DNA from: Malus domestica
Taxonomy: Eukaryota > Streptophyta > Magnoliopsida > Rosales > Rosaceae
NCBI RefSeq assembly: GCF_042453785.1
Contig: NC_091665.1
Span: forward strand, 9,433,501 to 9,497,500
Length of the DNA: 64,000 bases
Direction: 5' to 3'
In this document: positions 938-59,245 of the stretch, in pieces
How positions within the stretch are numbered: position 1 is the first letter of the stretch
Layout of the letters: every line of letters begins with the position of its first letter
Made by a program: the position numbers and the translations under genes
The notes under the pieces: generated by a model
Told to the model about the DNA's origin: nothing
Database searches by the model: none
The model's input: the letters and a program-made list of their open reading frames with translations, nothing else

Positions 938-976
<39 letters not shown>

Positions 977-1285: not shown

Positions 1286-4200
1286 AGACTGCAAGAAAAT
1301 CTGTTACTTCTAGTATTTGGCCAAAAGCTGTGTTGTAGTTGTATGGTCGTATCAGCTTTTTGTTTTAGTTTCTGTAAGACAAGGTGAGCAGCCCCGAGAA
1401 GGGCATCTTATGCTTGCCAATCTTGCTTGAGGAGCAGATGGGTGGAAGCCCTTGCTTGAGGAGCAGATGGGTGGAAGCAGAGGTTATGTTGATTGGATAA
1501 TACGAGTACAAAGGCAAGGCCAGCTAAATCCGTAACATAGAGGTAATGACTGCTGTTAAACTATGGCATTTATTGGATGTTGCTTCACACTGAGTTTGAT
1601 CAGATTCAAAATGCTTGTGCTCTAAGATTATCCCTGCTCACCTCTCTTTTACTTTCAATCTGGCAGACTGTTTGTTACGCCGATTAGATGCCTAATCTGT
1701 GGAGTGGCTGAGCAATATCTAGAGTTGAGGATGTTGAGTTGAAGAATCGAAGGAGATGTAGTGTAGTCATGTAATCTTGAGTCGTCCTCTTATGCTAGGA
1801 AGAAACACGTAAATTCTTTCCACGTTTTGTTATAATTCCATATTTTTTTCCCCTCCGATCTGATTGATCAGCGAGAGGACATAAGTGGTGTGATGAGCAA
1901 CCACCATGATTACAAGATTTGTGGGATTTTGTTGTATTTTCCTTTATCCTTGGTCAGATGTTAAATTTTGTTGAGAAATGGTTGCATTAATACTCGGAAG
2001 GTTATTTGTCTCTACATGCATATGATATCATAAGATTCCATTCCATGCCTTGTACAATTTCAAGAACGGCTACGTGTGAATTTGAATTGTTTTCAAATAA
2101 CTGAAAGCGCTTGATGAGTTGGTTTTAAACGAGTCCTGATAAGTTGGGTCAACCCTTTGTACCCTCATTTATTTATTTCACTTATCAACCTGTTGTACAT
2201 CATGTATATATTTGAGCTAACATGGCTCGTTGTACACTCATTAAGTCGGGTTGAGTTGGATCAACCCATTGTACACTCATGTATAAACTTACAGCTGGTT
2301 GGAACTTTCTGCGCCTTAACGGGTCAGTTTGGATGAATCCGCGAAACTCGTTAACAGCCCTTAGTAAGGACTTTTGTGTAATTTCAGTAGTCCTAATCCA
2401 AAACCCTCAGGTTGCTCGCAACTCACTCTCTCTAGCACGCCGTTGCTCTGTGAGACTGAGAGATCGCTGTGCTCCTTCGTTCTGGCCCCGGTTATCTCCC
2501 TCATCTTCTTCCCTCAAACTGAACTCCACCACTCTCTCTGGTAAGCTCCGATTCCCTTCCACCTCTTCTTTCATTTCGATTACTTTTCGTTTCTGCAGAT
2601 TAGATTCGTCTATTTTTTCTCAGATTTTACTTGAGCTTGATTTTAGGTGGTCTCTTCAGAACAGCTTCGAATTAATTCGGAATTAGTTGATTTTTGTTTG
2701 ATAATTTCAACTGCGATTGTGCTTTTGTTGTGCAAATTATGCTTTCTCGGTGTGATTGGATTGGAGATTTTGGGTTTCTAGTTTTTTTTTTTTTTTTTCC
2801 CCTTTTCCTGCTGCTCTCTCAAATCTCAATTTTCTTACTTTATTTCTTGATGATCATTAAATTACGTGACTTAATTGGCATATATTGTGTTTTTTTCTCG
2901 TTAATTGGATTGTTTATACGATTCGGTTAACTGGGTTTTAATGATGTAAGCCACTTGTGAATGTATTGTGGGAGACTATGGAGGCTCATCTCCAAAGAAG
3001 GCCGGGTGTGAGAACAATTTCGTTTTGGTAATCTAATGCTGCTTTTTATTTCCGACCCTTTTCGGTTTTTTTTTTTTTGGTTGTGTTTTGGATAATGGGT
3101 TTTGCTTTTTGTTCATGGGTTTTGTGTAAAATTTGTTCATTTGTTCATTTGTATATTCTCCAATTAAAATTTCCATTTTTGGGTAATTTGGAGCCGTTAA
3201 TTTACCCTCATGAAATTAAAAGTATTGAGTTTGCTTTGTTTGGGTTGGTTTTTGGATTGGAATTGGGTTGTTGTTGTTGTTTCCTTCTCTTTTTGTTTTT
3301 AAATTATATTTCGTTTCCTGTTTTAAATTGATAGTGAAATATGTTGACTTGTGGTCAGCTGTTATTTGCTAGGACATATACAATGCTTGATTAGGTCTTA
3401 GGTTGTCACTTGGATTATGTCTGTTGTTTTTGCATTGATTAGGTCTTAGGTTAAATCTTTAGTTTTGAGGCTAATGTCGATTGTCACCGAGAGAAAGAAC
3501 AGGCATTGATTAGGTCTCTGCATTATGTCTAACAAATCGCAGGACAGAGGATGCTGTTGTTTTTGGATTTTGGCAGACTGTTGGTATTAAAAAAGGAGGC
3601 GTTAGGCTAATGTAGTGTAGGGGGAGAGTAAAAGGAAAGGTCCTGAGCAAAAGCACTTCACTTTTGAATTCAGAATTTCAGAGGACATGACCTGCTTTAG
3701 GAAAAATATATATAGTAGTTAGTTTTAGTATGTACTGTCACAACGGAATTTTCTACTGTATTTTGTAGCTTTTGATTCTTCGGGTTTTTGAACCGTTAAA
3801 TCTTTAGTTTGGGCTGGAACTAGATAAGCGAAAGGAGTAGAACTTGAGTCGTAGAAATTGATTGAAAAAATGCATTCTACATCAACTGATAGCATACCAT
3901 TTCCATACAGACCATTAATGTTTTCATCATCAAGATTCTTGTATTCTTCTTTTTGTTTTTTGGCATGGTGTATTGACATGTATCAGGATCTCTCTTTGAG
4001 TATAGTAGTGTTTTCTTTTTTGCTCTCAAATTGCATCTCAGCTTGTTAGTATTCATATGTTTTAGTATTCATATGTGTATCTCCAATTTTTCGGATTCAA
4101 TTTGCAATTTGTTGTGAATTGTGTGCAAAGTTTTCTGATAAAATGCTTGAAAGATTTGGGATTTGTACATCCCGTATACTATTAAATCCCATAATCAAGG

Positions 4201-12320: not shown

Positions 12321-12695
12321 TGATTTTCAAGGTTTGTATATTTCTCATAAACTTTACAAGAGAGAGAACAAAGCTCTTATAAAGAGCCAGAGAACATATT
12401 ACAAGATAGAGGACTTTTACCACTATCCACCACATGGTTTCTGCCCTAAGAAACCGTACACACCAAGGATTGAACAAATAACAATATACAATTAAGTAAA
12501 TCCCAGATTTTAGGGAAAAATATTGACAAAAAGAAAAGTATGATTGAACAAGAAGTGAGATGACAAGTTGGAAAGTTTTAGCCATCACTTTAACCCTTGT
12601 AGCCATCACTTTAACCTTGTAGCCATCACTTTAACCCATAACTTAGCTATAGTGATGATTACAACTCATACTTGTGACTTTGATCTATTTCAACA
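12321..12695 (-). repeat. 3' LTR of Ty1/copia element A
   Basis: A 375-bp LTR reading TGTTGAAATAGATC to GAAAATCA on the minus strand. It matches the 375-bp LTR at 18112-18486, which lies in inverted orientation, with about 8 mismatches (around 2%). A purine tract (TTGAGGGGGAG on the minus strand, 12696-12706) abuts its start, as a polypurine tract should. Three tandem 21-bp copies of GGTTAAAGTGATGGCTACAAG-type units lie inside. Confidence 0.9.
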
Positions 12696-15600
12696 CTCCC
12701 CCTCAAGTTTGGATCGAGGAGATTGATTGATCCAAGCTTGGACAAAAGACCTTGAAACACGGCAGTCGCCAATGGCTTGGTGAAGAGATCAACAAACTGA
12801 CAAGAACTCGAAGTGTAACGAGTTTGTATGATATTTGATTGAACCCTTTCACGGATGTAATGGCAGTCAACCTCGATATGCTTGGTCCTCGCATGAAAAA
12901 TAGGATTAGAAGCTATATGCATGGCTGCTTGGTTATCACACATGAGAGTCATTGGTTGAGAGCTAGGAAACCCTAACTCAGAAAGAAGGCCTTTAAGCCA
13001 GATTAATTCACAAGCAGTAGTTGCCATAGCCATATACTCGGCCTCAGCACTTGATCGAGCAATCACACTTTGCTTCTTGCTTTTCCAACTTACTAGATTA
13101 CCTCCAACAAAAATACAGAAACCAGTAGTTGACTTGCGATCCAAGGGGTTACCTGCCCAGTCCGCGTCAGTGTAACCAAGAATCTGAGTGTGAGCATTGT
13201 TTTGCATCAAAATACCATGTCCCACAGAACCTTTCAAGTACCGCAATATTCTCTTAACAACTTGCAAATGATCCATTGTTGGAGAATGCATAAATTGACT
13301 CACAAGGCTGACAGCAAAGGCAATGTTCGGCCTTGTTATTGTAAGATAAATAAGTCTCCTAACTAACCTTTGGTAGTAACTGATATCAGTGAGTGTTTCT
13401 CCATCCATGGTCATTTTGTGTTTGCAGTCAAGGGGTATAAAGGCAGGCTTGCAATCCAACATATCAGCTTCTTGAAGCAAATCGAGAATATACTTTCGTT
13501 GATTCAAAAACATTCCCTTCTTAGAAGTTGCCATTTCAATGCCAAGGAAATATTTGAGTGTCCCAAGATCTTTGATGGCAAACTTCTGCTTAAGGGTGTT
13601 CTTTAGTAACACAATTTCACTGGCATTATCACCAGTGACAATGAGATCGTCCACATAAATAAGAACCACTAAAGTTCCACTGGGACAAATTCGAACAAAG
13701 AGAGATGAATCTGCATTGCTTCTCTTTAAGCCAACTTCTTCAATAACTGAGCTCAACTTTAAATACCAAGCACAAGGAGATTTTTTTAATCTGTAAATAG
13801 ATTTGTGCAGTTTGCAAACTAACTCGGGGTCACTGGATTGAGGATGACCAGGATGGAGTTTCATGTAAACTTCTTCTTCAAGTTCACCATTCAGAAATAC
13901 ATTTTTGACATCCATTTGATATAGAGGTCATGCATGGTTAATTGCAACAGATAACAACACTCGAATTGTGTTCATTTTAGCTACAGGAGCAAAGGTCTCC
14001 TTGTAATCTATCCCAAAAGTTTGAGTAAAACCACGAGCTATCAGTCTAGCCTTGTGTCTTTCCAAGGTGCCATCAGAATGGAACTTGGTTTTGTACACCC
14101 ATCTACTTCCCACTGCTTTTTTTCCTGGTGGTAACTTGATAACACTCCACGTTCTATTGTCATCCAAGGCTTTCAACTCTTCATTCATAGCTTTCTTCCA
14201 CCCATCTTGCTGCATTGCCTCCTGAAAACTTCTTGGTTCAGAAGCATTAGATATGGAATTGAGAAAGGCTGCATGCTTGGGTGCCACCCTTTAGTATGAA
14301 AGGTACTTAGCAACGGGATACATTGCATTGTAAGTCACATAATCCACAGCCTTAAAGGAGGTTGACGATTACTAGAAGGATTTTTTCTTCCTTGAGGTAA
14401 GACAGGTGATGATTCTGGGTTCTCAGGAGGTGAGTGAGATGTAGGTGACTGAATTGATGGTTCTAGCAAGATTTCCTCTTCATGACTTAGAGAATTCTCA
14501 TGTTCTCTGTCAGTGGACATGGATATATTTTCCTCATTGGTTGTTGGTCTTGGTAAAGGGAAGATTTCGAAGGCATTCTCCCCCTGACTTAAACCCTCCA
14601 CTGATTGTTCAAAGAAAGGTGTAGTCTCATCAAACTTTACATCCCTTGAGATAATGATTTTCCTTGAAGAAGGATTGTAACACTTGTAACCTTTTTGTGT
14701 TGAAGAATATCCCAAGAAAACACATTTGCTAGCTCTTGGGTCAAGCTTGTCACGGTGTATTGAAGCAACATGAACATAACAAGTACAACCAAAAAATTTC
14801 AAATGAGACAAGTCAATCTTTCTTCCTTTCAAGACTTCGTAGGGAGATTTTTGATCCAACACCCTACTAGGCAATCTATTGATCAAATAGGTAGCAGAAA
14901 GCACCCCTTGAGACCAAAACTTCTTGGGAACATTCATATGTAACATTAAGGCTCTAGTCTTTTCAAGCAAATCCCTATTTTTCCTCTCGGCCACTCTATT
15001 TTGTTGACGATTGCCAACACAACTTGTTTGATGGAATATCCTATGAGAACTTAAGTATTGAGACATGTTATTTGACATGTACTCAGTGCCATTATCAGAC
15101 CTTAAGGTGTGAATATGACAATCAAAATGAGTTGTTACAAGTTTATGAAAATCTTTAAACACATTCATGACTTCACTCTTGCACTTTAAAAGGTACAACC
15201 AAGTAATCCTTGAATAATCATCCACAAAGGTTACAAAGTATTTATAACCATCAAAAGATTCAATTGTAGGTCCCCAGATATCTGAATGAACAAGTTCAAA
15301 TAATTTACTAGCTCTAGACCTTGAGGAATTGAAAGGTAACCTAGTAGATTTGGAGAAGTGACAAGTATCACACTCCAAATTACCTTTACATATTGTGGGA
15401 AACAAAACGGACAAAACATGGTTTGAGGGATGAGCAAGACGATGATGCCAAATTAGTTATTCCTGAGAAGGGCTTGAGCTGACTTGAAGACTCTTAGGTT
15501 TTGAAAGATTCTTTGAAAGATAGTACAACCCATTTAGGAAGAAACCCTCACCAATCTTCCTCTTGGGGACTATGTCCTGAAAGACAACCTGATCAGAAGA

Positions 15601-16556
15601 AAAAATAGCATGACAATTTAGTTGTCTTGTGATTTTTCCTACTGGTAAAAGATGAAATGGAAAGGAAGGAACATACAAGGCTGATGACTCTATTTGATCA
15701 GAGATCAACTTAATTTTCCCTTTTCCAACAATTGAGACACCCTTACCATTTGCTACTGACACATGTGAAGAGTTTTTCATTTTTTCGAAGTCATATAAAT
15801 GTGAAGATTTGTTTGTCATATGGTACGTGGCTTCTGAGTCTATTATCCAATAATCATGCACAAGACTAGCATTTAAAGCAGTGGAGAACGCTTTCAATAT
15901 ACCTGGAATTTGTTTACTTGAGCCTCCATGATCAGAATCAGCAAGAAACCCAACAAATTTGCTCAGCAAGGCAATAGGGCTTTCAATTTCAGTTCCAGTT
16001 GTATTCTCTAGATCTCCACTTCTTTGTCTCCCTTGTAAATAGACAGCAAACTCGTTGATCAAGTTCACTGGATTAGAAGTAAAGTCAAGAAAGCTTTCAC
16101 TTGAGGAAGGAAGAGCAGCTAAAGCTGCATGATTAGCCTTGTACAAGGATGGTTGTGAGTTTCTCTGGAGCCCCTTGTTCTTTTGGAAGTTTGGCTTGAG
16201 CTCAGGATGTAAAATCCAACATTTGTCAATGGTGTGTCCACCATAGTTGCAATGTTTGCACTTCAGGTCAAACCTTTTGCCCTTGTCTCTTCTATCATCC
16301 GAGAACTTGTGGTTTGAAAAGTATGCCCTAGACTCAGGCAATATGTTTTTGGTTTCAAGATTCATCACTTTCCTTCGAGTTTCTTCATGTTGAATAATGG
16401 CACATACACTTGAGAAGGAAGGTAGCTCACTGTTCATCAAAATGTGACTATGTAGATTTTCATAGTCTGAGCTAAGACTAGCCAAGAGTTGAAAAATCTT
16501 ATCTTCTCAGCTTTCTTCAGAAGCACGGAAGCATCTGTGGTGTGAGGCCTGTATAC
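12659..16556 (-). pseudogene. Ty1/copia element A: gag C-terminus, protease, integrase, RT-RNase H (decayed)
   Basis: Minus-strand retrotransposon polyprotein in pieces. In order: the end of gag (EDKIFQLLASLSSDYEN) with a zinc knuckle CKHCNYGGHTIDKC; protease with DSEA where DSGA is required; integrase with VHSDIWGP, RSDNGTEY and VAERKNR; RT with YVDDLIVTG; and RNase H ending ADWAGNPLDRKSTTG and CDNQAAMHIA. Stops lie near 15457 and 13928 (the frame continues after each). A frame change occurs between the integrase and RT parts near 14300, and a 1-bp shift in gag near 16498. The gag reading stops at about 16556, where CACTA sequence begins on the other strand. The missing gag N-terminus lies on the plus strand at 18571-19010. 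Not autonomous. Confidence 0.88.
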
Positions 16557-29331: not shown

Positions 29332-29711
29332 TGTTAGTGTATATGAATTCACAGATCTTGATCTGAAGAAAGAAAGCTGGACGAAGAACAAACAAGAAAC
29401 ACAGAGAGACACAGAGGAAGCTGAATGGTTTCTTTTCTCTCTGTCAAGTTGCAGAGGAATATTTTCTGTGTATTTGAAAGAGCACGAACCACATGCTTTT
29501 TACATAACAGATGGCCTTAAACTTGGGACCACACATACACTACATTTCATCTTAGTCGCTCATCCATCTAATTACATGGATCAACCAACACATGGCACTC
29601 ATGGCCTTTTACAAAACAGAACTTTACACTTGGCATTATTTTGCACAAGTGAATACACCAATTTAAACAATCTTATTCTAAACTTTTCAGCTCAACACTT
29701 ATAATTCAACA
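29332..29711 (-). repeat. 3' LTR of copia element B
   Basis: 380 bp; on the minus strand it reads TGTTGAATTATAAG to CACTAACA. It differs from the 5' LTR only at a C/G near 29491 and a G/A near 29557. Flanked on the left by target duplication ATTAT. Confidence 0.95.
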
Positions 29712-31210
29712 CTCCCCTTTAAGTTTTGAGCTGATTTCACTCCAAGCATTTCCCTGAGATAGTTGAACCGATCCTTTGTTAAAGCCTTGGTGAATATGTT
29801 TGCCACCTGCTCATTTGTTGGACAGTACACCAAATCAATTATCCCTTCCTGGAGTGCATTCTTGATGAAGTGATACCTTCTGTCAATGTGCTTGGTTTTT
29901 TGATGAAAAAATGGATTCTTAGTGATTGCAATTGCAGCTGTATTGTCACAGTGCACTGGAGTTGCTTCAGTTTGCATCTCACCAAAATCTTCAAGTACAA
30001 ATCTAAGCCAAATGGCTTGAGCAGTTGCTTCAGAGGCACTGATGTACTCTGCTTCTGCAGTAGAGAGTGCTACACAATTCTGCTTCACAGAGGCCCACGA
30101 GAACACTCCACTGTCAAAAGAAAATGCATAACCAGAAGTGCTTTTGCTGTCATCAACAGATCCTCCCCAATCACTATCACAAAATCCGATTAACATTGCA
30201 TTCTTTCCTTTTACATACTCCAGACCATAGTCTAATGTTCCCTTGATGTATCTAAGCACTCTTTTGGCTGTTCCAAAATGTTTGTTTGTAGGACAGTGCA
30301 TGAATCGAGCTAGAAGGCTTGCAGCATACATTATATCTGGTCGAGTAGCTGTGAGATACAACAAACTGCCCACAATTCTTTGATACTGTTCCTCACTTGT
30401 TGAACCACTACCATCATCTTTGCATAACTTCTCTGATGAAACAAGAGGTGTGAACACAGATTTACACTCATTCAATCCAAACTTATCCAACAAGGAAGCA
30501 ACATATTTTCTTTGATGGATAAAGATGCTTGTGTGAGTTTGAATAACTCCCATACCAAGAAAATGGTGAAGAAGTCCCAAATCTGTCATCTCATATTTTA
30601 TCATCATGTCTTCCTTGAATTCCTTCAACATCTCAGTGCTATTTCCAGTATACACTATGTCATCCACATAGATTGAAACAATTAGAATTTCTCCTCCCCT
30701 TGCTTTGATGTAAAGAGTAGCTTCACTTTGACTTTTCACAAACCCACAGTGAGCAAAGTATGTATCAATTTCACTATACCAGGCCCTTGGTGCCTGCTTT
30801 AGACCATACAAAGCTTTATGAAGCTTGTACACCTTGTCTTCACTCCCCTTGATCACAAACCCATCTGGTTGTTCTACATAAACCTCTTCTTCAAGTACTC
30901 CATTCAGAAAAGCAGATTTCACATCTAGTTGATATAATTTCCAACTTTTCTGAGTTGCCAAGGCAATTAGGGTCCGAATTGTATCAAGTCTAGCTACAGG
31001 GGCAAACGTTTCATTGTAATCCACACCTGGTTTCTGTGCATATCCCTTGGCTACCAACCTTGCCTTATGCTTTTGCACTGTCCCATCAAGATTAAGCTTG
31101 GTCTTGAATACCCACTTAACCCCAATTATAGGTTTATCACATGGTCTGTTCACTAGATCCCATGTTGCATTCTTCTCAATCATTGACAATTCATCTTTCA
31201 TAGCTTTCAT
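29699..31210 (-). CDS. Copia element B: reverse transcriptase and RNase H
   Basis: 503-codon minus-strand frame beginning with the codon directly after the TGA that ends the upstream frame, so it is the second part of one polyprotein. RT opens with WDLVNRP and [14 protein letters not shown]; the catalytic YVDD is at about residue 180 ([11 protein letters not shown]), and [17 protein letters not shown] and [11 protein letters not shown] precede it. RNase H carries [26 protein letters not shown] and CDNTAAIAI, with the terminal [10 protein letters not shown]. It overlaps the first bases of the 3' LTR. The protein could be made only by readthrough or internal initiation. Confidence 0.9.
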
Positions 31211-33844
31211 TCATGATTCATCTTTAGCTGCCTCTTCAAATTTTTCAGGTTCCATAATGCAAAGATTGCATTGTGCTAGAACATCATCTAGATTCTTCCA
31301 TCTCAATGAAGTGTGATCAAAGGCTTGAGTCTTTCTCATGCTGCTGTTCACATCACTTACAGATTCATGAGAAGATACCAGACTTGGTGACAGAGCATAG
31401 TCATTTCCTGCTGGAGTTGTCTCTGATGAAATACATTTAGGCATCTCAGATAACTCATTATGATTCAACACAGTGACATAATTCTCAGAAGTTTTCTTCC
31501 ATTCCCAGGCTGCATTTTCTTCAAACACTACATCCCTTGAGAGTATAAGCTTTTTACTAAGAGGTTCATACACTCTGTACCCCTTTTCACAGGTTGCATA
31601 ATCTACAAATATGCCCTTGACACTCTTTGCATCTAGTTTTTGTCTCAACTCACTTAGTGTATGTACATAACATAAACATCCAAAGATTCTAAGATGTGCA
31701 ATTCCAGGTTTTCGACCACTGAATGCTTCAAATGGAGTTACTTCTCCAAGAGCTCTTGTAGGACACCTATTCAGTATGTAGACAGCTGTGAGTACAGATT
31801 CTGCCCATAAATAGTAAGGTAGTCCCTTGTCATGAAGCATAGCTTTTGCCATTTCAACTACATCTCTGTTCTTCCTTTCTACCACTCCATTCTGTTGTGG
31901 AGTATAAGCCATAGAAAACTGTCTTTGAATCCCTGCATTTTCACACATTTTGTTAAATCCACAAGATGTGAATTCACCTCCTCTGTCACTTCTCAGACAT
32001 TTTACTTTAAAACCACTTTGCAACTCCACCATGGATTTGAATTTTCTAAAATAGATCAATGCATCTGACTTGTATTTCAGAAAATAAACCCACATCATTC
32101 TTGTACAGTCATCTACAAGAAGCATAAAATATTTGTTACCCGCAAGAGAATCATTTTGCATAGGACCACAAAGATCTACATGCACTAGCTCTAGAGGTTT
32201 GCTTGCTCTCCATGCCTGATTCTTTGGAAACCATTCTCTATGTTGTTTCCCAAACTGACAGCCTTCACAAACTTCATCCACTTCTTCTAAAACTGGAAGA
32301 CCATGCACCATTTCTTTGTTCTTAAGCTGTTGAAGACCTCTAAAATGCAGATGGCCTAGTCTCTTGTGCCATATCCACGTAGACTTAGAAATACTTGCTC
32401 TTAGTACAACCTGATCATTTGGTATCAGTGTCAAAGGATAACACCTGTTCTTTTTCATTTCAACTTTAAGTACCAGACAATCCAATGAAGGACCATCAAA
32501 TATACTACACATCTTTCCCCTAAATACCAGGTAGTAACCATGTTCATCCATCTGACCCACACTTAACAAGTTTTCCTTCAAACCAGGTAGGTACATTACT
32601 TCCTTGACATATTTTCTGCCTTTGCTTGTGTCTATCACAAGTGTACCAAAACCTGCCACATTCATAAGTTCTCCTGTGGGCATTTGAACCTTGCCAACCA
32701 CATTTGTCTTCATGTCTATCAACAACTTTGAATCCCCTGTCATATGGTTGCTACAACCACTGTCAACATACCATTCTCCATTCACTTTTGATTCAGTGAT
32801 TGTGCTATTTGCATAAAACAAATTCCCTGTCACCTCAACTTGATTAGCACTGTTTGCCTTTTGCACTGATTTACCTACTGTGCACTCTCTAGCCCAGTGT
32901 CCAAACTTTTCACAGTTATAGCATTTGGGTTTCCCTTTATACCTACATTCTCCAAAGTGAAACTTAGAGCATACCCTGCACTGTGGTTTTGTACCTATCT
33001 GACCCATTGATTGTGCATTATGTGCAGAATTAGTAGGAAATTTCTGCTGAAACTTGGGTTTTGAACCCCATTTCTTGCCTTTATTATTCCAATTCTTCTG
33101 GAACTGAGATGAACCAGATTGACTTTCGCTCCTATTTTGCTCATTTGAACTCACTGAGAAAGATGAGAAAGATGAGAATGCTTTCCCAGTAGTATCAACA
33201 GTATGTAGATCGAACCGTTGTTCTTGACTCTTCAAGATTGCAACTACCTCCTGCAATTCTACAGTCTCTAGACACTTTGTGTTTTCTATAACCAAACAGA
33301 TAGAATCATAAGGTTTACTAAGACTAATCAGAACCTTCTGCACAAGTCTCTCATTCGACAGAGATTCACCAAATGTTCTCATCTGATTAATTAGTTCATT
33401 CAACCGTGTAAGATAGCTAGATAAAGACTCATCATCTCGCATCCTAGCATATTCAAATTCTCTTCTAAGATTCTGCAATTTCACAGATCGTACCTGATCA
33501 CCGCCATGATATTCTCCGTACAACAAATCCCATGCCATCTTAGCTGACTCGGCATTGGCGATTCGTGGGAAGATTTTATCCGAGACTGCATTCTGAATGA
33601 TTCCCAAAGCCTTTGCGTCTTTCATCAAAGCAGCTACCATTTCTTCATCATCCGTCGATGCTTCTCCAACTTCCTTCTTCTTCGGATTGGAGGCTGTAAT
33701 CCCCTTCTCTACTAGATTCCATAACCCAAGAGATTTGAATATTGTTGCCATTTTAATTCTCCAGAACTCGTAGTTCTCACCGGAGAAAATTGGAGTCCTC
33801 ACTTCCGAGCTTCCAGATCCAGACATGTTTTCCACAACCTTCAC
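31211..33844 (-). CDS. Copia element B: gag, protease and integrase
   Basis: 877-codon minus-strand frame. In order: gag (TPIFSGENYEFWRIKMATIF, UBN2-type), a CCHC zinc knuckle CYNCEKFGHWAREC (about residues 306-320), protease with the active-site block WYVDSGCSNHMTG (about 355-368), integrase zinc region WHKRLGHLHFRGL with CEGCQFGKQ, and integrase catalytic core with acidic residues in HVDLCGP (about 555), RSDRGGEF (about 618) and VVERKNR (about 655), a D,D-35-E arrangement. It ends EEAAKDES then TGA (31213-31211), just where related polyproteins run on into RT; the expected codon there is tryptophan (TGG). All catalytic residues seen are intact. Confidence 0.92.
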   Translation of the reverse strand: MKVVENMSGSGSSEVRTPIFSGENYEFWRIKMATIFKSLGLWNLVEKGITASNPKKKEVGEASTDDEEMVAALMKDAKALGIIQNAVSDKIFPRIANAESAKMAWDLLYGEYHGGDQVRSVKLQNLRREFEYARMRDDESLSSYLTRLNELINQMRTFGESLSNERLVQKVLISLSKPYDSICLVIENTKCLETVELQEVVAILKSQEQRFDLHTVDTTGKAFSSFSSFSVSSNEQNRSESQSGSSQFQKNWNNKGKKWGSKPKFQQKFPTNSAHNAQSMGQIGTKPQCRVCSKFHFGECRYKGKPKCYNCEKFGHWARECTVGKSVQKANSANQVEVTGNLFYANSTITESKVNGEWYVDSGCSNHMTGDSKLLIDMKTNVVGKVQMPTGELMNVAGFGTLVIDTSKGRKYVKEVMYLPGLKENLLSVGQMDEHGYYLVFRGKMCSIFDGPSLDCLVLKVEMKKNRCYPLTLIPNDQVVLRASISKSTWIWHKRLGHLHFRGLQQLKNKEMVHGLPVLEEVDEVCEGCQFGKQHREWFPKNQAWRASKPLELVHVDLCGPMQNDSLAGNKYFMLLVDDCTRMMWVYFLKYKSDALIYFRKFKSMVELQSGFKVKCLRSDRGGEFTSCGFNKMCENAGIQRQFSMAYTPQQNGVVERKNRDVVEMAKAMLHDKGLPYYLWAESVLTAVYILNRCPTRALGEVTPFEAFSGRKPGIAHLRIFGCLCYVHTLSELRQKLDAKSVKGIFVDYATCEKGYRVYEPLSKKLILSRDVVFEENAAWEWKKTSENYVTVLNHNELSEMPKCISSETTPAGNDYALSPSLVSSHESVSDVNSSMRKTQAFDHTSLRWKNLDDVLAQCNLCIMEPEKFEEAAKDES

Positions 33845-33928
33845 GGAGCTTCAAGAGAGCTTCGATTTAGCTCAATAACTTCACAGATTTACGCCCAGAT
33901 GGTTAAATCCAACTTGGCTTTGAGGCCA

Positions 33929-37954: not shown

Positions 37955-39387
37955 GTTGTTTTATCTGGAACCACCAGCCAAGGTTGTGGAACAATCAGAA
38001 AAGGCCAAACCATCCACGGGACTGTACTGAATAGTACCCTAATTATCGGTCCGTGGGTTTAGGTAAAGAGAAAAGGATAGAAAATCTCAACAGAATACAT
38101 TGAAATAGAAAGACACTACAAAGTGAGGAATGCCTAACAAAGGCAGCCCAAGATAAGGAGAGAGAGATGGAGGCTGAGAAATGGTTTTGGTGGGTGGAGA
38201 AAAAGAGAGGAGGGAGAGAGATGGAGATTTAGGGTTTCAACATTGAGGCTTAAAAGAGAAGCACCCAACTGAGCACAAGAGAAAATAGAGAAAGGAAAGC
38301 AAAAGGACTGAGGGAAAAAAAAACCCACATCTTTGTCGGTTGATTCTTTGTTGATCTATTTTGAAGGCTAGGAAAAATGGATTACCTTCCTAGCTTTAAA
38401 CTCTCATGGAAAATTTACATACCATTTGTAAATTCCTATTATTTAGTATTTAGAAAATTTGTCTATAACTCTCCAATAGCCGAACTTTCCTTCCTTAATT
38501 AAAATCCTAGATCTAAAAAATTCATAGTCGCCGGCCTCAAGCTCTGGATTGGGGCTGATGACAACCTCTCTCCCCATTTTCTTAGCCTTGTTCTTTTGTC
38601 TTCATATGAATTGTTGCAAATCTATTACTCAATTAATATTTCTCGTCCATAAGTGTCTTCCTAGTGAGGTTATTTGTAGGTCTTTCCTGATGAGTATTTT
38701 GATGATGATGAGCACAAAATTCATGGGATATACACTAGTTGATTCCTTGTCAGTTTCTCTTGAGAGTTGGCATTGATCGTTGTCAAAAATTGTCCTCGTG
38801 TTCGTTATATTGAATTTTTTTCCGTAGAATCTTTCAAGTTCTAAACTGCAAAGTGTTTAAGTTTTTCATTAGGAATTGAGTTTCTTTGGCTTTGGAGTGC
38901 CATCTCAATCTATTGAGTTTTGGTGTGGATGATTTTAATATTTGGATGCATTCATTTGCTTAGTTTAAGATATGTCTCATCCACTAATACAGTAACAACT
39001 AACCGAATTACGTTGGCTATTCATATTTTGTTTACGTCTCTTTTAATTGGGGATCTCTTGAATTTATTCCAAATTAACCTCTTTAATATTTGCCATCAGT
39101 TCTTAATATTCAAACATTATAATACAACTGCAATTGGTTCGCCTCAAAATCAGAATTATAACATAATGAGAATGGCATATCTTCGTCCAAAATATAAATT
39201 TTTTCCATCAGGAAAGAGAGAGAAAGAGAGGGTCCATGTTGTCATATGGAGGGTCAACATGCAAGAGCAAACCCAATGGGCTTGGCTCCCACCATGTCCT
39301 TGCACACATACACACCGCAAAACACCCGTGGTATGTCCTTTCCTCCCCCCTCCACATGACCTAGCACTCTCTCTCTCTCTCCCTCTC
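37126..39387. other. Intergenic and SAUR upstream region
   Basis: No gene recognised. A compound GT/GA microsatellite lies at about 37896-37952. 38110-38340 is purine-rich. The DNA just before 39388 is CT-rich, fitting a plant core promoter. Confidence 0.4.
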
Positions 39388-39395
39388 CATAAATA
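39388..39395 (+). promoter_or_regulatory. TATA box of the SAUR gene
   Basis: CATAAATA lies about 130 bases before the SAUR start codon, preceded by a CT-rich stretch. The spacing implies a leader of roughly 100 nt. Confidence 0.7.
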
Positions 39396-39526
39396 CCCCG
39401 GTCACCCTTCACTCACTTCACCACCAACAGCTCTCGACTACTCCACTCTCTTATCCTTCCTTTTCCCCATTTCCTTTACCCAAAACAAACACCACAAACC
39501 AAAAACACAAAACAAAGAAAAAGGAA

Positions 39527-39844
39527 ATGGGCTTCAGAAAACCGAACAAACTGGCTCAAACCGCAGTGCTCAAGCAAATCCTGAAAAGATGCTCAAGCTT
39601 GGGAAAGAAACATGGCTACGACGAAGATGGTCTTCCCATCGATGTCCCAAAAGGCCATTTCCCAGTTTACGTTGGCAAGAACAGAACAAGGTACATTGTT
39701 CCCATCTCGTTTTTGACACATCCTCAGTTCCAATGCCTCCTCCACCAAGCCGAAGAGGAATTCGGTTTCGATCACGACATGGGCCTCACAATCCCTTGCG
39801 AAGAAGTCGTTTTTCGATCCCTATCGTCGATGCTCATGAGATGA
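39527..39844 (+). CDS. SAUR family auxin-responsive protein
   Basis: Intronless 105-residue small auxin-up RNA protein. SAURs promote cell expansion by inhibiting PP2C.D phosphatases and so activating plasma-membrane H+-ATPase (family knowledge). The SAUR core runs from about residue 38 to 100: [38 protein letters not shown], and [19 protein letters not shown], then [10 protein letters not shown]. The N terminus is basic and variable ([20 protein letters not shown]), as in SAUR50-like members. Length, lack of introns and the TATA box all fit. ATG at 39527 is the only start that includes the family's N-terminal block. I saw no complete TGTCTC auxin-response element close to the TATA box. It lies alone, not in a SAUR cluster within this window. 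Confidence 0.93.
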
Positions 39845-43098: not shown

Positions 43099-43119
43099 TA
43101 AATAACTAGGGCTGGGTTC

Positions 43120-43270
43120 GGTTTGAAACGGTTCGGTTTTTTGCCAAAACCGAAACCGAACCGAAATTTCGGTTCGGTTCGGTTCGGTTCAATTTTTTTT
43201 CGGTTTTTTTCGGTTCGGTTTTTTTTCGGTTCGGTTTTTTTCGGTTCGGTTTCGGTCCGGTTCGGTTATT
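43120..43270. repeat. CGGTT-type subterminal array, left end of the hAT element
   Basis: About 150 bp dominated by CGGTTCGGTT units, with an inverted cluster (CCGAAACCGAACCG) at about 43148-43162 that can fold back. A matching array lies at 44820-44930 near the other end. Such arrays in hAT elements are usually transposase-binding sites. Confidence 0.8.
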
Positions 43271-43982
43271 TTTTATTTTTTATTTTTTTTATAAAATGTA
43301 AACTTTCATTAAACTTACATACATATCAAAAGCCCACAACTAAACACAAACAAAAAAATGGGCCAGCACAACAACCCAACCCAAGGGTTAAGCCCGAAAA
43401 AGAAAGAAAAAAACTGAAAGCCTAGCTGCCTAGCTGCTTAGTTCCCTTGCTGCCTTCGAAGCAAGCTCCGGCGACCATGAACCAGCAATCCAACAAACAC
43501 CAGAGGTGAAGACCATGAATCGCGATATCCAATCACGATTTCCTGCCTTTGACGACCCCTGAGCACAAACAAACATAATTTTCCTTCAGCTTATGAATTA
43601 ACAATCACAAATTTTGCACCTTTATGACAATAAAAACATTATTTCCAGTGTTCAAACAGACTGAAACATATAATAGAACCAACCAACTTCACCCCCACCT
43701 ACCCTTTTAGAACTTAAACAAAAGGCCAAGGACATTTGTATGTATAACTGTGTCATATAGAAATTCATCCACTGATCAACAAGACGAGGAGTCAAACTTA
43801 CTGAAGTCCTCTGCTAATTTAGACCACCATTTGCCTCAATGTATATATAACCATTTGACTCAGCCAAACCTACAACGCCGGAACAAAACCAAAGTCATTC
43901 AAATCCTTGAACAAGCGAGTTTCGAAAAAATAAATTTAGATTGTATCTTTTTAATACAAAACCAGGAAAGCAAATGAAATAC

Positions 43983-44075
43983 CTCAGCCCTAGTGTCGGT
44001 ATCTGCAAGCCGTTGCTTTATGTCTCTTGCTATCGAAAAGAAAACTTGCTCCACATTAAGATTCGTCTTTGCACT
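43983..44075 (-). pseudogene. RABE1: Captured exon of a RABE1/Rab8-type small GTPase
   Basis: A 93-base minus-strand segment encoding 31 residues: [18 protein letters not shown] followed by [13 protein letters not shown]. This is the Rab G5 (SAK) guanine-base motif and the last helix of plant RABE GTPases (Arabidopsis RABE1c differs at few positions). The segment begins after CAG and ends before GTATTTC, so both exon borders appear kept. The GTP-binding loops and the prenylated tail are absent, so it is only a fragment inside the transposon. It has no stop or frameshift. Confidence 0.88.
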
Positions 44076-44398
44076 CTGCGTTACACAATATCTTCAGTAA
44101 ACGGAAACACTTATTATTCAACTAGTTTCCGGTAGAGTTGGGGGCTGCGGTAGACGGAGCTGGGGGCGAGACGACGTGAGATGACGGGAACGACCTCGAA
44201 AGAGACACGTAGCAGAGATCGAATCAGTAATCCAAATAACAATTGAAACAAATATCCAAATACACAAATCCAAAAACCAAATGCAAAAAAGGGATTATAA
44301 TTGTCAGATCCAAACAAAAATCAATAAATCATCGAAATCAAAAGCTAAAAAATAAAAGGAAAAACAAGGTTCAGTGAAGGGAGAGAAGATGAAATTAC

Positions 44399-44474
44399 CC
44401 TGCTTGTGACCGGTGCCTTTCTCGACGAGTCGACGGTATGGCACTGAGCGCACTTGGTCTTGAAGATTTTCTCA
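44399..44474 (-). pseudogene. CYTC: Captured cytochrome c exon fragment
   Basis: Minus-strand segment reading EKIFKTKCAQCHTV, which includes the CxxCH haem-attachment motif of cytochrome c, then EKGTGHKQ in another frame. It is followed by GTAATTTC, the intron position known in plant cytochrome c genes. An 8-bp insertion (a repeated GTCGA with CTC between) shifts the frame after HTV. The start of the protein and all later exons are missing. It lies upstream of the RABE exon on the same strand, so splicing between the two captured pieces is conceivable. Confidence 0.8.
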
Positions 44475-44947
44475 CAGAGAGTGATTGAAGTTGAAGACCG
44501 AGAGAGAGGGTTACTGGGTTAAAGGGTGTTGCGGCGGCTGTGGCTGCCTAGGGTTAAAGAATTTAACACGAGAGAGAGAAGAGAAGAATGAAAAAAAATA
44601 AAAGGTGTGGCTGCTGTGGCTGGCTAGGGTTAAAAGGGTTTTGTAGATTTCTCAAAAAAAATTTAAAAAATTCTCTAAAATACTAAAGGCATGAGGGTTC
44701 GAACCCATGCCTTGCAGTTTGAAAAGCTTCACAGAAACCAACTTGGCAACGAGTTATGTTTTGTTATGATTGTATGACTAAAATATTTATAATATTGAAA
44801 ATAAATAAATAAATATTTATATCGGTTCGGTTCGGTTTGACAGTTTCGGTTCGGTTTTTTTTTTGGTTCGGTTTTTTCGGCCTCGGTCCGGTTTGGTTTT
44901 CGGTTTTTTTCGGTTTTCGGTTTTTTGAACCCACCCCTATAAATAAC

Positions 44948-52673: not shown

Positions 52674-53129
52674 TGTCAAGGACCCAGAAGAGTTCCCCTC
52701 CGACCAGGAGGCCAATCACTACTCGACACGTGTCAAGATTAGAAGCCAATCAGAGCGCAGCACGTGTCGACATCAAGAACCAATCATAACATGACACATG
52801 TCAATGTGACAAAGCTACAAGTTTTTCTATAAATAGGGGTCATTCCCCCACAATATGGCCTAATGCCATTTGTGTTAAATCATTCACAAGAACTCACTAA
52901 ATTGAGAGCTTGATCCTTTGTACTTGTGTAAGCCCTTCACTACTAATAAGAACTCCTCTACTCCGTGGACGTAGCCAATCTGGGTGAACCACGTACATCC
53001 TGTGTTTGCTTCTCTGTCTCTATTCATTTACGTACTTATCCTCACTAGTGACCGAAGCAACCAAGCGAAGGTCACAAAACCTGACACTTTCTGTTGTACC
53101 AAAGTCTTCGCTGATTTTGTGCATCAACA
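52674..53129 (+). repeat. 5' LTR of Tat-lineage Ty3/gypsy element
   Basis: Read as TGTCAAGGACCC to CATCAACA, directly before the primer-binding site. A TATA box (TATAAATA) lies at 52828-52835, giving an expected transcript start near 52860. The right end is well fixed by the primer site. The left end is uncertain: the LTR could begin further upstream, near 52617. The partner 3' LTR is not in the window. Confidence 0.65.
52828..52835 (+). promoter_or_regulatory. TATA box in the gypsy 5' LTR
   Basis: TATAAATA followed by GGGGTCATTCC in the middle of the LTR, the expected place for the element's polymerase II promoter. Confidence 0.7.
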
Positions 53130-53131
53130 TT

Positions 53132-53147
53132 TGGCGCCGTCTGTGGG
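53132..53147 (+). promoter_or_regulatory. Primer-binding site of the gypsy element
   Basis: TGGCGCCGTCTGTGGG follows the LTR end after two bases. This TGGCGCC-type site is usual for plant Tat/Athila gypsy elements. The exact priming tRNA is not certain from sequence. Confidence 0.75.
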
Positions 53148-53236
53148 AAACGACACTTATTCCTACTCTCTTCAGCTGTGTCAAGCTGGTTTCTATCATT
53201 CGTACACTTTCTTTTGATCAGGCATCCCTCTCCAAC

Positions 53237-56200
53237 ATGGGAAGCGAAGGAAGCCACAGCACACAGAATGACACCCCCCTTGCACATAGTGCGAAACAAC
53301 GAAAGAAGGAAGGAAAACGAGTTCTTCTTCAAGCTAAAGTCGATGAGTTGGAAGCTCAGAACAACAAGATAGCAATGAGGAATGAGGTCCTCCAGGAGCA
53401 ATATGAGAAGCTCTTCGAGACACTCCACGAAGCTAGGCAAGCTCAGACACGCGAGCTTGTTGCCCCCGTGGAAGTCAACCATCAACTGGGTGCCCTCCAA
53501 CATGGAGGGTCACATGCATTCGACATAGATATCCCTGATAGGGAACAGATTACCCCTCGATTTGATAATCAACATGAGGCTTCTCTTAACCCAGTTGCTT
53601 CGACCCGAACCATGAGAAGTGGAAGGAGACACCTCTTTGCTGAAGGGGCAGAAGGATCGAAAGCCGTCTTTCGCGATTGTCGGGATTTCCTGAAGCAACG
53701 TCGAGAGAATTCCATCCATATAAGCTCAAAGATTAATGACCCAAGGATTTCTGAGAGACTCGGTCCCCTGCCACGGCCCAAGCCGGCCACCAATTTGGGG
53801 AAGGGGCAACAAGTCCTAGAGAGACATGAGGGTACAGGGGACTCAGAGGTGTTCCGACAGACATACCCTGGAAGCCAGTACAGCGAGTCCAGGGAAAAAT
53901 CACATGCCCTTGATCAAACCTTCTTAATTCCAATAGGAGATGGAGATTTACGAAAGAAAGCTCCAGTGACACATAACTCCGCTCAGGACCCCCTTGTCCT
54001 ACAACTTCTTGAGGAAGTAAATAAGTTGAAGGCTGAACGTCAGGCTGAAATACCTGACTGGAACCAACCCAGGCCTGGCCCTCTTACAAGGAGGATCCTC
54101 AACACCCCCCTTCAAGCAAAGACAAAGCAAAAGCTTGGCTTGCAACTTTATACTGGAAAAGAGGACCCGATTGAGCACCTTAACCTCTTTGAGTCCACCA
54201 TGGCATACCGGATGCACACCGACGAAGAGCGATGTCTTCTCTTCCCCTCCACCCTCTCTAGTGGAGCTCTAAATTGGTATTGTCGTCTTACACCTGAGAC
54301 GGTAGACTCATTTGAGGAATTGAGGAAACTATTTGTTTCCCAACACATTTTCCAAACCGATCGCTTGCACTCTGCAGATGACTTGTACACTATCCGCCAG
54401 AAGGCAGACGAGTCATTACGTATGTATGCTGGCCGCTTCAGCCATGAATACTCCCGGTGTGCCGAGGCAGACGACAAGACTGCCCTCAAAGCCTTCACGG
54501 CAGGCCTACGTGATTGTTTCTTTAAATACATGATCAATGCCAATACTTGGAAGACTTACTCTGAGGTGATGGCGCAGGCTTATAACCATGCCTCCGCCGA
54601 GGCAAAGACATATCAGGAGAAACCCCCTACAACCATCCTTTATCAACAAGTGGGAGGTGGAAGCCAGACTCACCTAAATGAGAAGACCTCGACTTTCCAA
54701 ACAGCAGTGGCACCTCCCCATGCCTTGCATAATGCTTCACCGAATCAACAGACATATCAATTTCAAGGCAAGAGGAAGGATTTCCATCCTCACCACTCTC
54801 CTTTCAGTAAAAAGAGTAAGGGACACTATCCCGATAACCAAGGGTATCGCCACAATAACGCTCGCCCCCAGGCAGTCAATGCAGTGGGTCAAACCCGCAT
54901 CAAGATACCCCCTACCCCAAGGTATGAGACATACACGCCCTTGAATACCACATGCGCGGCCATTTACCCCAGCATAGCTCACCTGATACCAAAGCCAAAG
55001 CCGAGGCACCCAGATTACACGCCCCCGAATAACGCGGGCATGTTTTGTTGCTACCATGAGCATAACGGCCATGATAGCGAGAAATGTATCATCCTCCGTG
55101 ATCGTATTGAAGCTTTGGCACGAGAAGGAAAAATTGATCAATTCCTTCTTCACCCTCAAAGGGATAACCGTAACCAACGCCAGGTGAATGTCATATATTC
55201 CATAAGCGGCGGCACACCCATATCTGAATCTTCCAATAGGGCCATGAAAAACAGTGAACGAATTCTGAGGCCTGGTCACCAAGTGTTTCACGTGGAAGAC
55301 ATCAGGGGAGGGAAGTATCAAAAGCCTAACTGGGATCCGATATGTTTCTACCCTGAGGAAGAAAGAGGCATCATCTACCCTCATAACGACCCATTGATCG
55401 TGGAGGCTCACATAGCCAACTTTGATGTTCGATGAATCCTCGTAGACACAGGGGCTTCGGTCAATATCATGTTTGCCGAAGCTTTCAGGGCACTCAGTGT
55501 AGCTGAACACTTGCTCGATCGCTCGATTTCTCCTCTGATAAGCTTCTCCGGTGATATCGTGCAACCCTTAGGGAGCATACATTTACCCTTTACTATTGGT
55601 ACAGGCCCTTACACGGCTACCATTACCACTAACTTCCTAGTGGTTGACTGCCCAACGGCATACAATGTCATCTTTGGGCGCACAGGCATCAATGATCTCA
55701 AGGCTATGGTATCCACGCATATGCTATTGATGAAATTTCCAACCCCCCATGGCAACGGCTACATCAGAGGAGATCAGCTTAGTGCACGATCATGTTACAA
55801 CACTTCAGTTAAGCAACAACACTTGCCCGGACCCAAGGAAACCCTGTCTGTACATGACCAAGTCACAAAGACCAGCCTAGATGAAGCGAACTTGGATCTT
55901 CCTGATAGCAACAATCAACCCGATGATCCTCGAGATGACTCTTTCACCCAGCAAGCCCAACCTGCTGAAGAGTTGGAAAAGGTACCTATCTCAAGAGATC
56001 ATCCAGACCGCATGGTGAATATTGGCACCACATTGTCACCACCCCTTCGGTTAGCATTGATATCTTTTTTGAAAGAGAACACTGAAGTCTTCGCCTGGTC
56101 ATACGAGGACATGCCAGGCATCTCTCCCGATGTCATCTGTCATCGTTTGAGTATTGACCCCAAGATCAAGCCGGTGAGACAGAAGCGAAGATCTTATGAC

Positions 56201-59200
56201 GCTGAACGATACGAGGCAATGAAAGCAGAAGTTGAAAAACTCAAAGGCATAGGCTTTGTCCGCGAAGTCAATTACCCGACATGGGTAGCAAATGTGGTCC
56301 TTGTTAGGAAAAATCCGACCAAAGAAAGTCTTTCGCTTCAAAAGGTCTTGTGGAGGATGTGTGTTGACTACACCGACCTAAACAAAGGGTGTCCGAAAGA
56401 TAGTTTCCCTCTTCCTCTTATTGACAGGCTTATAGACTCTACGGCAGGGTGTGAGCTCTTGAGCTTTATGGACGCTTATTCAGGATACAACCAGATCCTC
56501 ATGAACCCCTCAGACCAAGAACACACGGCCTTCACTACTGACAGGGGACTATATTGCTATAAAGTCATGCCTTTCGGCCTAAAGAATGCAGGAGCAACTT
56601 ATCAGAGACTGGTCAATTCAATGTTCGCCGAACAAATTGGGAAGAACATGGAAGTTTACGTTGATGATATGCTAGTCAAAAGCAAACATGCTGACCAACA
56701 CATCACCAACCTATCTGAAACTTTCACCATTCTAAAGAGGTATCGAATGAGGTTGAACCCCAACAAATGTGCCTTCGGCGTGGGCTCTGGCAAATTCTTA
56801 GGCTTCATGATTAGCCAACGAGGCATTGAAGCTAACCCTGAAAAGATCAAAGCAATCCTCGACATGAAAGAGCCAATAACTTCAAAAGACATCCAAAGCC
56901 TTACTGGCAAGGTGGCAGCCTTAACCAGATTCATCTCTAAGGCCACAGACAGATGTGCTCCTTTCTTCAAAGCACTCAAGGGAAATAAGAAGTACATTAC
57001 ATGGACGGAGGAATGTGCCAAGGCATTCAGGAACCTCAAAGAGTACATGAGTAAAGCCCCTCTGCTCTCCAAACCAGAAGTTGGTGACACTCTCATCATC
57101 TATCTATCGGTTTCGGCTTCAGCAGTCAGTTCTGTTCTTATTCGAATGGACAGTGGTGTCGAACGGCCCGTCTACTACGCTAGCAAGGCCCTACAAGATG
57201 CGGAGACACGATACTCCAACATTGAGAAATTAGCTCTAGCATTGGTCATGTCTGCTTGGAAACTTCGCCCTTATTTCCAAGCACACGCCATCATCGTGCT
57301 TACCAATCACCCTCTTCGACAGATACTCTAGAGTCCTGACACGTCTGGACGAATGATCAAATGGGCGATAGCATTGGGTGAGTTTGACATCTCCTACCAA
57401 CCAAAACCAGCCGAAAAAGGTCAAGCAGTAGCAGATTTCATCGCCGACTTCACATATCCTGTTGACATTGCTTCTACACCTGAAGCAGTAGCTTCATTAC
57501 CATCGGAAGCTCAGAAAGTAGAATCAACGACCTCAGCATGGAGTCTGTATGTTGATGGCTCATCCAACCAACAGGGCTGTGGAGCGGGACTAGTCTTGAC
57601 TACGCCCGACAAAGTAGCAATGGAGTATGCTCTTCGTTTCAAATTCAAGGCATCAAACAATGAGGCCGAGTATGAAGCCCTTCTAGCAGGATTACGTTTG
57701 GCCAAACACCTCGGGGTTAAACAAATTGATATTTTCAGTGACTCCCAATTAGTGGTCAACCAGGTTACCAACAACTTTGATGCTAAGGACAGCTCCATGG
57801 CAGCATATCTTGCGCAAACACAACTTTTGCTCAAGCACTTCCACTACCAGATCACCCAAGTTCCTCGAGCGGCAAACAGTCATGCAGACGCCCTGGCTCG
57901 CCTCGCCTCAGCTGTGGAAGACAAGATTGGAAGAAAAATTCATGTCGAACTGTTGGCAACACCAAGCACCATGGCCGCAGAAGTATGCAACTTACAACAG
58001 GGGGATAGTTGGATCACCCCGATCTATAATTTCCTTGCTCATGGCACCCTCCCAAATGATAAAGTCCAGGCTAAGCAAATTCGATACAAGTCTACCCGCT
58101 ACCTGATCATCAATGATCAACTCTATAAGCGAGGTTTTAGCCTGCCATACTTAAGGTGTCTTACGCCTGCCGAGGCGGAAATCGTCCTTCGGGAAATACA
58201 TGAGGGAGTCTGTGGAGATCATGCTGGATCTCGGTCTCTAGCACACAAGACTTTTCGCCAAGGATATTACTGGCCAACACTCCACCAGGATGCCATCAAA
58301 GTATCCCGCTCATGTGACAAATGTCAACGATATGCGACTATTCCTCATTCCCCTCCAGAGCCTCTTACTCCTATGATCAGCCCTTGGCCCTTCGCCCAGT
58401 GGGGACTTGATTTGATCGGCCCAATGCCGGCAGGGAAGGGCAAAGTCTGTTACGCAGTCGTTGCAGTGGACTACTTCACAAAGTGGGCCGAAGTAGAACC
58501 CTTGGCAACCATTACTGAGGCAAAGATAGAAGACTTCGTGTGGAAGAACATCCTTTGTAGATTCGGCATTCCCAATGCGATAGTCACTGACAATGGGCGA
58601 CAGTTTGACAACAAGAAGTTCAGGTTGTTCTGCTCTAAGTTCAACATCAACTTATGCTTTGCCTCTCCAGCTCATCCCCAGTCTAATGGACAAGTTGAGG
58701 CCATCAACAAAATAATCAAGCGCACTTTGAAAACCAACTTGGACAAAGCTAAAGGCTGTTGGCCAGAATTTGTACCCCAAGTTCTTTGGTCATATCGCAC
58801 TTCATATCGGACTTCAACAGGAGAAACTCCATTCTCACTTGCCTTTGGCACAGAGGCGGTTGTCCCTGTTGAGCTGGAGCAAGCAACATTCCGAGTCCAG
58901 AACTACATTCAAAGTGAAAATGACAAACAACTCACCCTCAACTTGGATTTAGTCGAGGAACACAGAAACCAAGCTCACTTGAGGAATGTCGCCTACAAGC
59001 AGCGCATCTCCAACTATTATGACTCTAGGGTCAAGCCTCGTTCTTTCAAAATAGGAGACTGGGTCTTAAAGAAAAGATTACTCTGCGACAGAGTCCCGAG
59101 TGAAGGCACACTTAGTCCAAACTGGGATGGACCGTATGAAGTCATTGGCATCAGTCGCCCTGGCTCTTACACACTTAGAAGCTCCGATGGCAAGACCCTT

Positions 59201-59245
59201 GGCCATCCATGGAACGCTGATCACTTGAAGTACTACTACAAATAG
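53237..59245 (+). pseudogene. Gypsy (Tat lineage) gag-pol polyprotein, one frame with two stops
   Basis: From ATG 53237 the same frame runs to 59245 (about 2000 codons), interrupted only by TGA at 55433-55435 (after FDVR, before ILVDTGAS) and TAG at 57329-57331 (after LRQIL). In order: coiled-coil N terminus; gag core (MAYRMHTDEERCLLFPSTL, about residues 311-435); a C/H cluster FCCYHEHNGHDSEKC (about 605); protease DTGAS (about 736); RT with YVDDML (about 1140); RT-linked RNase H ([20 protein letters not shown]); a second, archaeal-type RNase H (LYVDGSSNQQGCGAGLVL, NNEAEYEALLAGL, FSDSQLVVNQV; about 1434-1555); and integrase with HHCC zinc finger (CDKCQ) and catalytic acids in GLDLIGP, VTDNGRQF and NGQVEAINK. 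Two RNase H domains are the hallmark of the Tat lineage. All catalytic motifs seen are intact. Confidence 0.9.

Follow-up and report, generated by a model that had tools for sequence, protein, structure and literature searches.

A non-autonomous hAT element of apple with nested pieces of four host genes and a rhabdovirus N-like piece in a sibling copy

The DNA analysed here, a stretch of 64,000 nucleotides (the window; C5:9433501-9497500), contains a transposon in which a first-pass annotation had recognised exons of two unrelated genes, cytochrome c and a RABE GTPase, and this raises the question of how a mobile element comes to hold pieces of such genes. The pickup of gene pieces by excising DNA transposons is disputed, the explanations being fusion of neighbouring insertions or copying in break repair. 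We searched the genome (651 Mb, 19 contigs, to which the C-numbers below refer) for copies of the element and for the sources of its interior.

The element is a non-autonomous hAT element of 1833 bp at window positions 43107-44939 (element coordinate plus 43106 gives the window position). The two copies of its target site duplication (TSD), TAAATAAC, agree at 8/8 bases, as had been annotated. The 13-bp terminal inverted repeats (TIRs), TAGGGCTGGGTTC and TAGGGGTGGGTTC, have TAGGG at both ends, also as annotated, but they match at 12/13 bases and not perfectly; the ends of the element are TAGGGSTGGGTTC, and CGGTT-rich subterminal repeats lie next to them. TIRs of hAT elements have the consensus start YAGGG and their target preference is nTnnnnAn, while MULEs combine TIRs with a TSD of 9-11 bp and Helitrons have ends without a TSD. 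A Pack-MULE or a Helitron is thus ruled out by the 8-bp TSD and the TAGGG ends. In the family, T is present at TSD position 2 in 11/13 cases and A at position 7 in 8/13, the TSD in the window being without the T. Inspection of the minus strand by eye revealed no transposase-like frame inside the element, in line with the first-pass description; the captured pieces leave little space for a transposase, and since the element is non-autonomous, a missing internal transposase is expected. Also by eye, three retrotransposons with long gag-pol-like frames, two of copia type and one of gypsy type, were seen in the window at 12659-16506, 29699-33850 and 52988-59245, and the frame of a SAUR-like auxin-responsive gene at 39365-39844, approximately 3 kb from the hAT element.

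A whole-element genome search, a search with the interior of the C4 copy and the mapping of fetched loci revealed that the interior is a nested mosaic from four host loci (Table 1). Cytochrome c (C15) is outermost; inside it lie pieces of a GRAM/VASt-like gene (C7) and of an O-fucosyltransferase gene (C16), and RABE (C11) is innermost. The presence of cytochrome c and RABE exons was therefore correctly annotated, but the count of two genes was not, as the donors of 43608-43779 and of 43776-43875 plus 44132-44206 had been missed. That each exon keeps a splice site was likewise confirmed: the RABE exon annotated at 43983-44075 on the minus strand is complete with both sites, and cytochrome c retains its donor GT at 44398. 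The minus-strand exon with CAQCH, annotated at 44399-44474, is indeed from cytochrome c; it is not intact, since the piece ends at 44473, its 5' side is incomplete and its frame is shifted.

Table 1. Features of the hAT element and the sources of its interior (empty cells, no entry)
Feature	Window position	Element position	Strand	Remarks
Target site duplication, left	43099..43106			TAAATAAC
Left end of hAT element: TIR and CGGTT-rich subterminal repeats	43107..43564	1-458	+	first 409 bp common to older family members
Inner flank of cytochrome c capture, C15 intron 1 piece	43565..43612	459-506	- (sense)	89.6% over 48 bp
Two C7 GRAM/VASt-like pieces, mostly non-coding as far as read	43608..43779	502-581 and 576-673	-	joined by internal deletion at ACCAAC
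C16 O-fucosyltransferase piece with exon 2	43776..43875	670-769	-	99% identical; stop codon in own frame
RABE patch, intron-exon-intron	43870..44132	764-1026	-	263 bp, 99.2% to C11:9959401-9959663
Complete RABE (Rab8-like) exon, 93 nt	43983..44075		-	acceptor and donor kept
C16 O-fucosyltransferase piece, within exon 1	44132..44206	1026-1100	-	96% identical
Cytochrome c capture, main piece: part of exon 1 and beginning of intron 1	44212..44473	1106-1367	-	11 substitutions in 243 aligned bases against the C15 gene
Cytochrome c exon 1, 3' part, with CAQCH	44399..44473		-	donor GT next, at 44398
Right end of hAT element	44474..44939	1368-1833	+	last 372 bp common to many older family members
Target site duplication, right	44940..44947			TAAATAAC

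The resemblance of the RABE and cytochrome c pieces to their host parent genes is far above chance, and for the three other-than-cytochrome-c donors one locus is closer than its presumed homoeolog: 99.2% versus 84.7% (C3) for the RABE patch, 85.0% versus 81.0% and 95.9% versus 77.1% for the two C7 pieces, and 99.0% versus 95.0% and 96.0% versus 94.7% for the C16 pieces. These paired loci fall on contigs 3/11, 2/7 and 13/16, respectively, whereas C15 was the sole locus found for cytochrome c in the whole-element search. Introns are kept in the RABE and cytochrome c pieces, and the copied segments are still present at the donor loci. The C15 donor exon matches Pfam Cytochrom_C above the cut-off and, by phmmer against PDB, cytochrome c 1ccr (E 4.5e-18); the RABE donor exon matches Rab-8A in the same kind of search (best E 3.2e-4), and its name follows what we take to be the plant Rab8 class. 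In the C16 gene, the frame of exon 1 gave no Pfam match and no useful PDB match, and the gene is named O-fucosyltransferase because three other frames of the locus match the O-FucT domain (E 5.6e-17, 3.1e-14 and 9.1e-9). For the C7 gene, donor frames matched GRAM at 4.8e-4 and VASt at 0.0033 and 0.064, none of which passes the Pfam cut-offs, and three further frames gave nothing useful in Pfam; its designation as GRAM/VASt-like is provisional.

The segment between the TSDs is repeated elsewhere with target duplications of its own. Near-full siblings were found on C12 (96%, query 1-1833), C17 (97%, 1-1804) and C14 (99%, 1-1731), and 14 related elements were mapped to the donors, the fetched members L023-L025 and L028 being outside that mapping. 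Five of the 14 carry RABE (the window copy, C12a, C17, C14 and C5b); three hold C7, C16 and cytochrome c without RABE (C1, C4 and C10), cytochrome c flanking the C7 and C16 pieces on both sides; five hold cytochrome c without other donors (C6, C5c, C7e, C15e and C12b); and one, C11e, has no donor piece. A tree of the left ends, with 16 rows, unites the RABE carriers (95/93; bootstrap not fully settled) and, separately, the cytochrome-c-only copies (100/98), and in it the intermediates C1, C4 and C10 group together weakly (67/76); the right-end tree gives the RABE group 63/94. Within the RABE carriers, C5b is an earlier branch. A TSD of 8/8 was found in 12 of 18 elements and one of 7/8 in a further element, while C17 and C1 have none and the remaining three without a TSD are L023, L025 and L028, whose ends were not located. 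Four RABE carriers (the window copy, C12a, C14 and C5b) have separate 8/8 TSDs and have thus moved after the capture.

Several features of individual copies lie outside this series. Beside the C17 copy (2861-3243 of its locus), a 371-bp stretch of the right part of the element is directly repeated with no matching right TSD, and this copy was probably rearranged after insertion. A right end of approximately 820 bp, common to the five copies with cytochrome c alone, also occurs in a second, abundant hAT-like family, suggesting an exchange of ends between families. It was considered as an extra captured gene and rejected, since this longer hAT end is abundant and matches elsewhere at 72-93% identity. 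A 2.2-kb insert in C1 was rejected for the same role, being an abundant repeat with 32 other near-full-length places among the 44 matches listed; it is probably a solo LTR that inserted later.

Divergence from the donors was 4.1-8.4% for cytochrome c, 2.9-3.5% for the C7 and C16 pieces in C4 (1.0-5.3% in other copies) and 0.5-0.8% for RABE. RABE differed from C7 plus C16 of C4 (p=0.034) and from cytochrome c (p=0.009), and C7 plus C16 of C4 differed from cytochrome c of C6 (p=4e-5), whereas within C4 there was no difference between C7/C16 and cytochrome c (p=0.43). The substitution counts thus agree with the nesting for RABE, as the youngest layer of the window copy, and for cytochrome c of C6 against C7/C16 of C4.

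One sibling has a fifth layer. Inside its RABE patch, C5b carries a 497-bp piece (C5 approximately 45577452-45577948) that is 97% identical to C9:35201099-35201596, the one other genome match, and the C9 source stretch is part of a 390-codon open frame matching Rhabdo_ncap_2 (E 3.9e-52). At one edge, the piece and the RABE patch share TCATTC; at the opposite edge their overlap is eight bases long and includes one mismatch. The N-like piece has 10 substitutions in 497 bases and RABE 1 in 223 in this copy, the reverse of the expected order, but not significantly so (p=0.19). Two endogenous rhabdovirus N-like sequences, MdRNLS1-1 and MdRNLS1-2, spanning 1164 and 462 bases, were listed for Malus x domestica in 2011, according to the part of the paper available (PMC3136472), and our two genome matches, the C9 frame and the transposon-borne piece, resemble this pair. 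Judging from lengths and number, MdRNLS1-2 may be the transposon-borne copy and not a separate viral integration.

The RABE capture offers its before-state, its after-state and its donor in one genome, and its junctions can thus be followed at single-base resolution. C4 still has the whole, and C10 most, of the C16 stretch displaced by RABE. The change from C16 to RABE falls on CTACAA, 6 bp common to both sources, and the return to C16 on a single common base, G. On the minus strand, CTACAA reads TTGTAG and includes the splice acceptor of O-fucosyltransferase exon 2, so that the RABE donor at 43982 now faces an acceptor at 43870. Over eight junctions, one of them the internal deletion, 32 bases are common, three of which are a run between the donors at the O-fucosyltransferase/cytochrome c junction and no true overlap; random trials that included this junction and re-paired breakpoints placed at random no more than 300 bp from the observed ones gave a mean of 5.9, and 0 of 20,000 reached 32. 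Without the internal deletion, the observed 26 was not reached in any of 20,000 trials. In the window copy, the O-fucosyltransferase/cytochrome c junction has 5 extra bases instead of an overlap, and the overlaps at cytochrome c/C7 (5 bp) and N/RABE (8 bp) contain one mismatch each.

We consider it probable that this is a Pack-type hAT element which gained DNA by repeated, microhomology-guided template switching in break repair, with transposition in between. A hAT transposase encoded elsewhere would act on its ends in trans. A break in its interior, from excision or from an internal double-strand break, would then be filled by template switching among unrelated loci, guided by a few common bases, and as each repair would replace part of the prior interior, the captures would come to lie concentrically. 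Cytochrome c would have been captured first, the C7 and C16 pieces inside it in one event or two, then RABE inside the C16 piece and, in C5b, the rhabdovirus N-like piece into RABE as the last step. A left-end search for an autonomous partner gave none; it gave three family members of approximately 1 kb without transposase-like frames by eye. Among 150 hAT-dimerisation matches scored of 1495 candidates, none lay within 10 kb of the 94 places matching the family of the window element or the related right-end family, the nearest being at 13.3 kb.

The published model for plant Pack-TYPE elements, hATs included, as given in the part of that paper available (PMC8903248), is fusion of neighbouring insertions, in which two elements flanking a gene piece are mobilised as one with the DNA between them. 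Fusion, too, predicts that newer DNA is more internal, and the nesting is consistent with either. However, the captured pieces adjoin directly and are separated by neither a TIR nor a remnant of an end, the junctions show microhomology, and RABE replaced an existing stretch of the interior and was not added beside it. Moreover, no element end above 60 bits was present in the fetched 7-9.5 kb at each of the C11, C7, C16 and C15 donors, C9 being outside this comparison. The kept introns, the intact donors, the lack of ends at these four donor loci and the junction overlaps fit copying by template switches and fit fusion poorly, and we regard fusion as unlikely. Independent later insertions, or an assembly artefact, could in principle also have placed the exons together, and the layers do differ in their divergence from the donors. 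Yet the four closest RABE carriers lie on different chromosomes, share the whole arrangement and are 99.5-99.8% alike in the core, and the copies in the window, on C12 and on C14 (not C17) each have an 8/8 TSD. The common arrangement and the separate TSDs contradict independent insertion, which the first-pass annotation had named among the cases against its reading, and we attach almost no weight to it or to an artefact.

It could further be asked whether the element is a functional chimeric gene, with a translated minus-strand transcript in which the cytochrome c exon is spliced to that of RABE. The sense strand of every donor piece coincides with the minus strand of the element (4/4 here, 5/5 including the N-like piece of C5b; by hand calculation, the probability of a common strand is 0.06 if strands are equally likely), neither the RABE donor nor the O-fucosyltransferase acceptor has been lost, and, given an 8-bp insertion, the frame of cytochrome c that ends at 44399 is continued by the RABE frame from 44075. 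This insertion, after CAQCH near 44427-44434 (placement ambiguous), nevertheless shifts the cytochrome c frame; the open frame upstream of the piece has no ATG; O-fucosyltransferase exon 2 contains a stop codon when read in its own frame, and the frame following RABE meets a stop after 16 codons; and the RABE patch of C5b is interrupted on its intron side. A translated gene of this kind is accordingly very improbable in our judgement. All five RABE carriers have the insertion, which C1, C4 and C10 lack, and 6 of its 8 bases repeat the next eight; our guess is an imperfect duplication, the scar of an old hAT excision inside the element. The cytochrome c piece begins inside the coding sequence, the 5' side of the exon being missing. 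Given this truncation, the frameshift and the lack of an ATG to open the frame, a cytochrome c-RABE protein from this element appears unlikely. As far as sequence can indicate, a chimeric spliced RNA from the minus strand is possible, as are small RNAs against the donor genes, and the captured exons are most likely without protein function.

With regard to the dispute on gene-piece pickup, the RABE junction favours copying in which templates were switched. Successive stages are available ready-made in this family, one lineage of which has as many as five donors, and one of its transposons carries a piece of an endogenous viral gene. We see about even chances for the broader proposal that a hAT element acts as a serial collector, leaving a concentric and datable record of its captures, and that this process also disperses an endogenous RNA-virus gene, as a second-hand copy, across the genome.

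Rice Pack-MULEs hold pieces of several genes in one element, with introns kept, between MULE ends and a TSD of the 9-bp class. The apple element resembles them in having captured several genes with introns and differs in its superfamily, hAT. Pack-hAT elements are known in maize and rice (Gisby and Catoni, 2022; PMC8903248), and in the part of that paper available they share with ours non-autonomous hAT ends, an 8-bp TSD, captured coding DNA, several copies and a tendency of newer DNA to be internal. Unlike in that account, a donor is identified here for each layer and staged relatives remain, and the junctions fit template switching, whereas its authors favour fusion of neighbouring insertions; the same part shows sequential gain from two donor genes for a maize PIF family (PMC8903248). 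Maize Ds2 and Ds-l4 are likewise hAT elements with filler DNA from intron-bearing genes, and such filler was called rare for hAT by the Ds authors; the text available describes single captures and one compound element, in contrast to the concentric multi-locus layers found here (PMC3260210). In animals, hAT is the commonest superfamily of Pack-TIRs (208/370), and these, including Pack-hAT-N8_XT, share breakpoint microhomology, a gap-filling/template-switching model and multicopy cases with the present family; in the text seen they are mostly single-copy, with four multicopy and no layered series, as opposed to the layers described here (PMC8277862). Neither a hAT gene-capture family in apple nor a nested hAT series was found among the open-licence matches listed, as judged by title and start of abstract. 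Gene capture by hAT elements is thus already published, and the notable part is the nested series with resolved donors, which is unusually deep: one copy draws on four host donors, a sibling adds a viral-like fifth, and intermediate stages are preserved.
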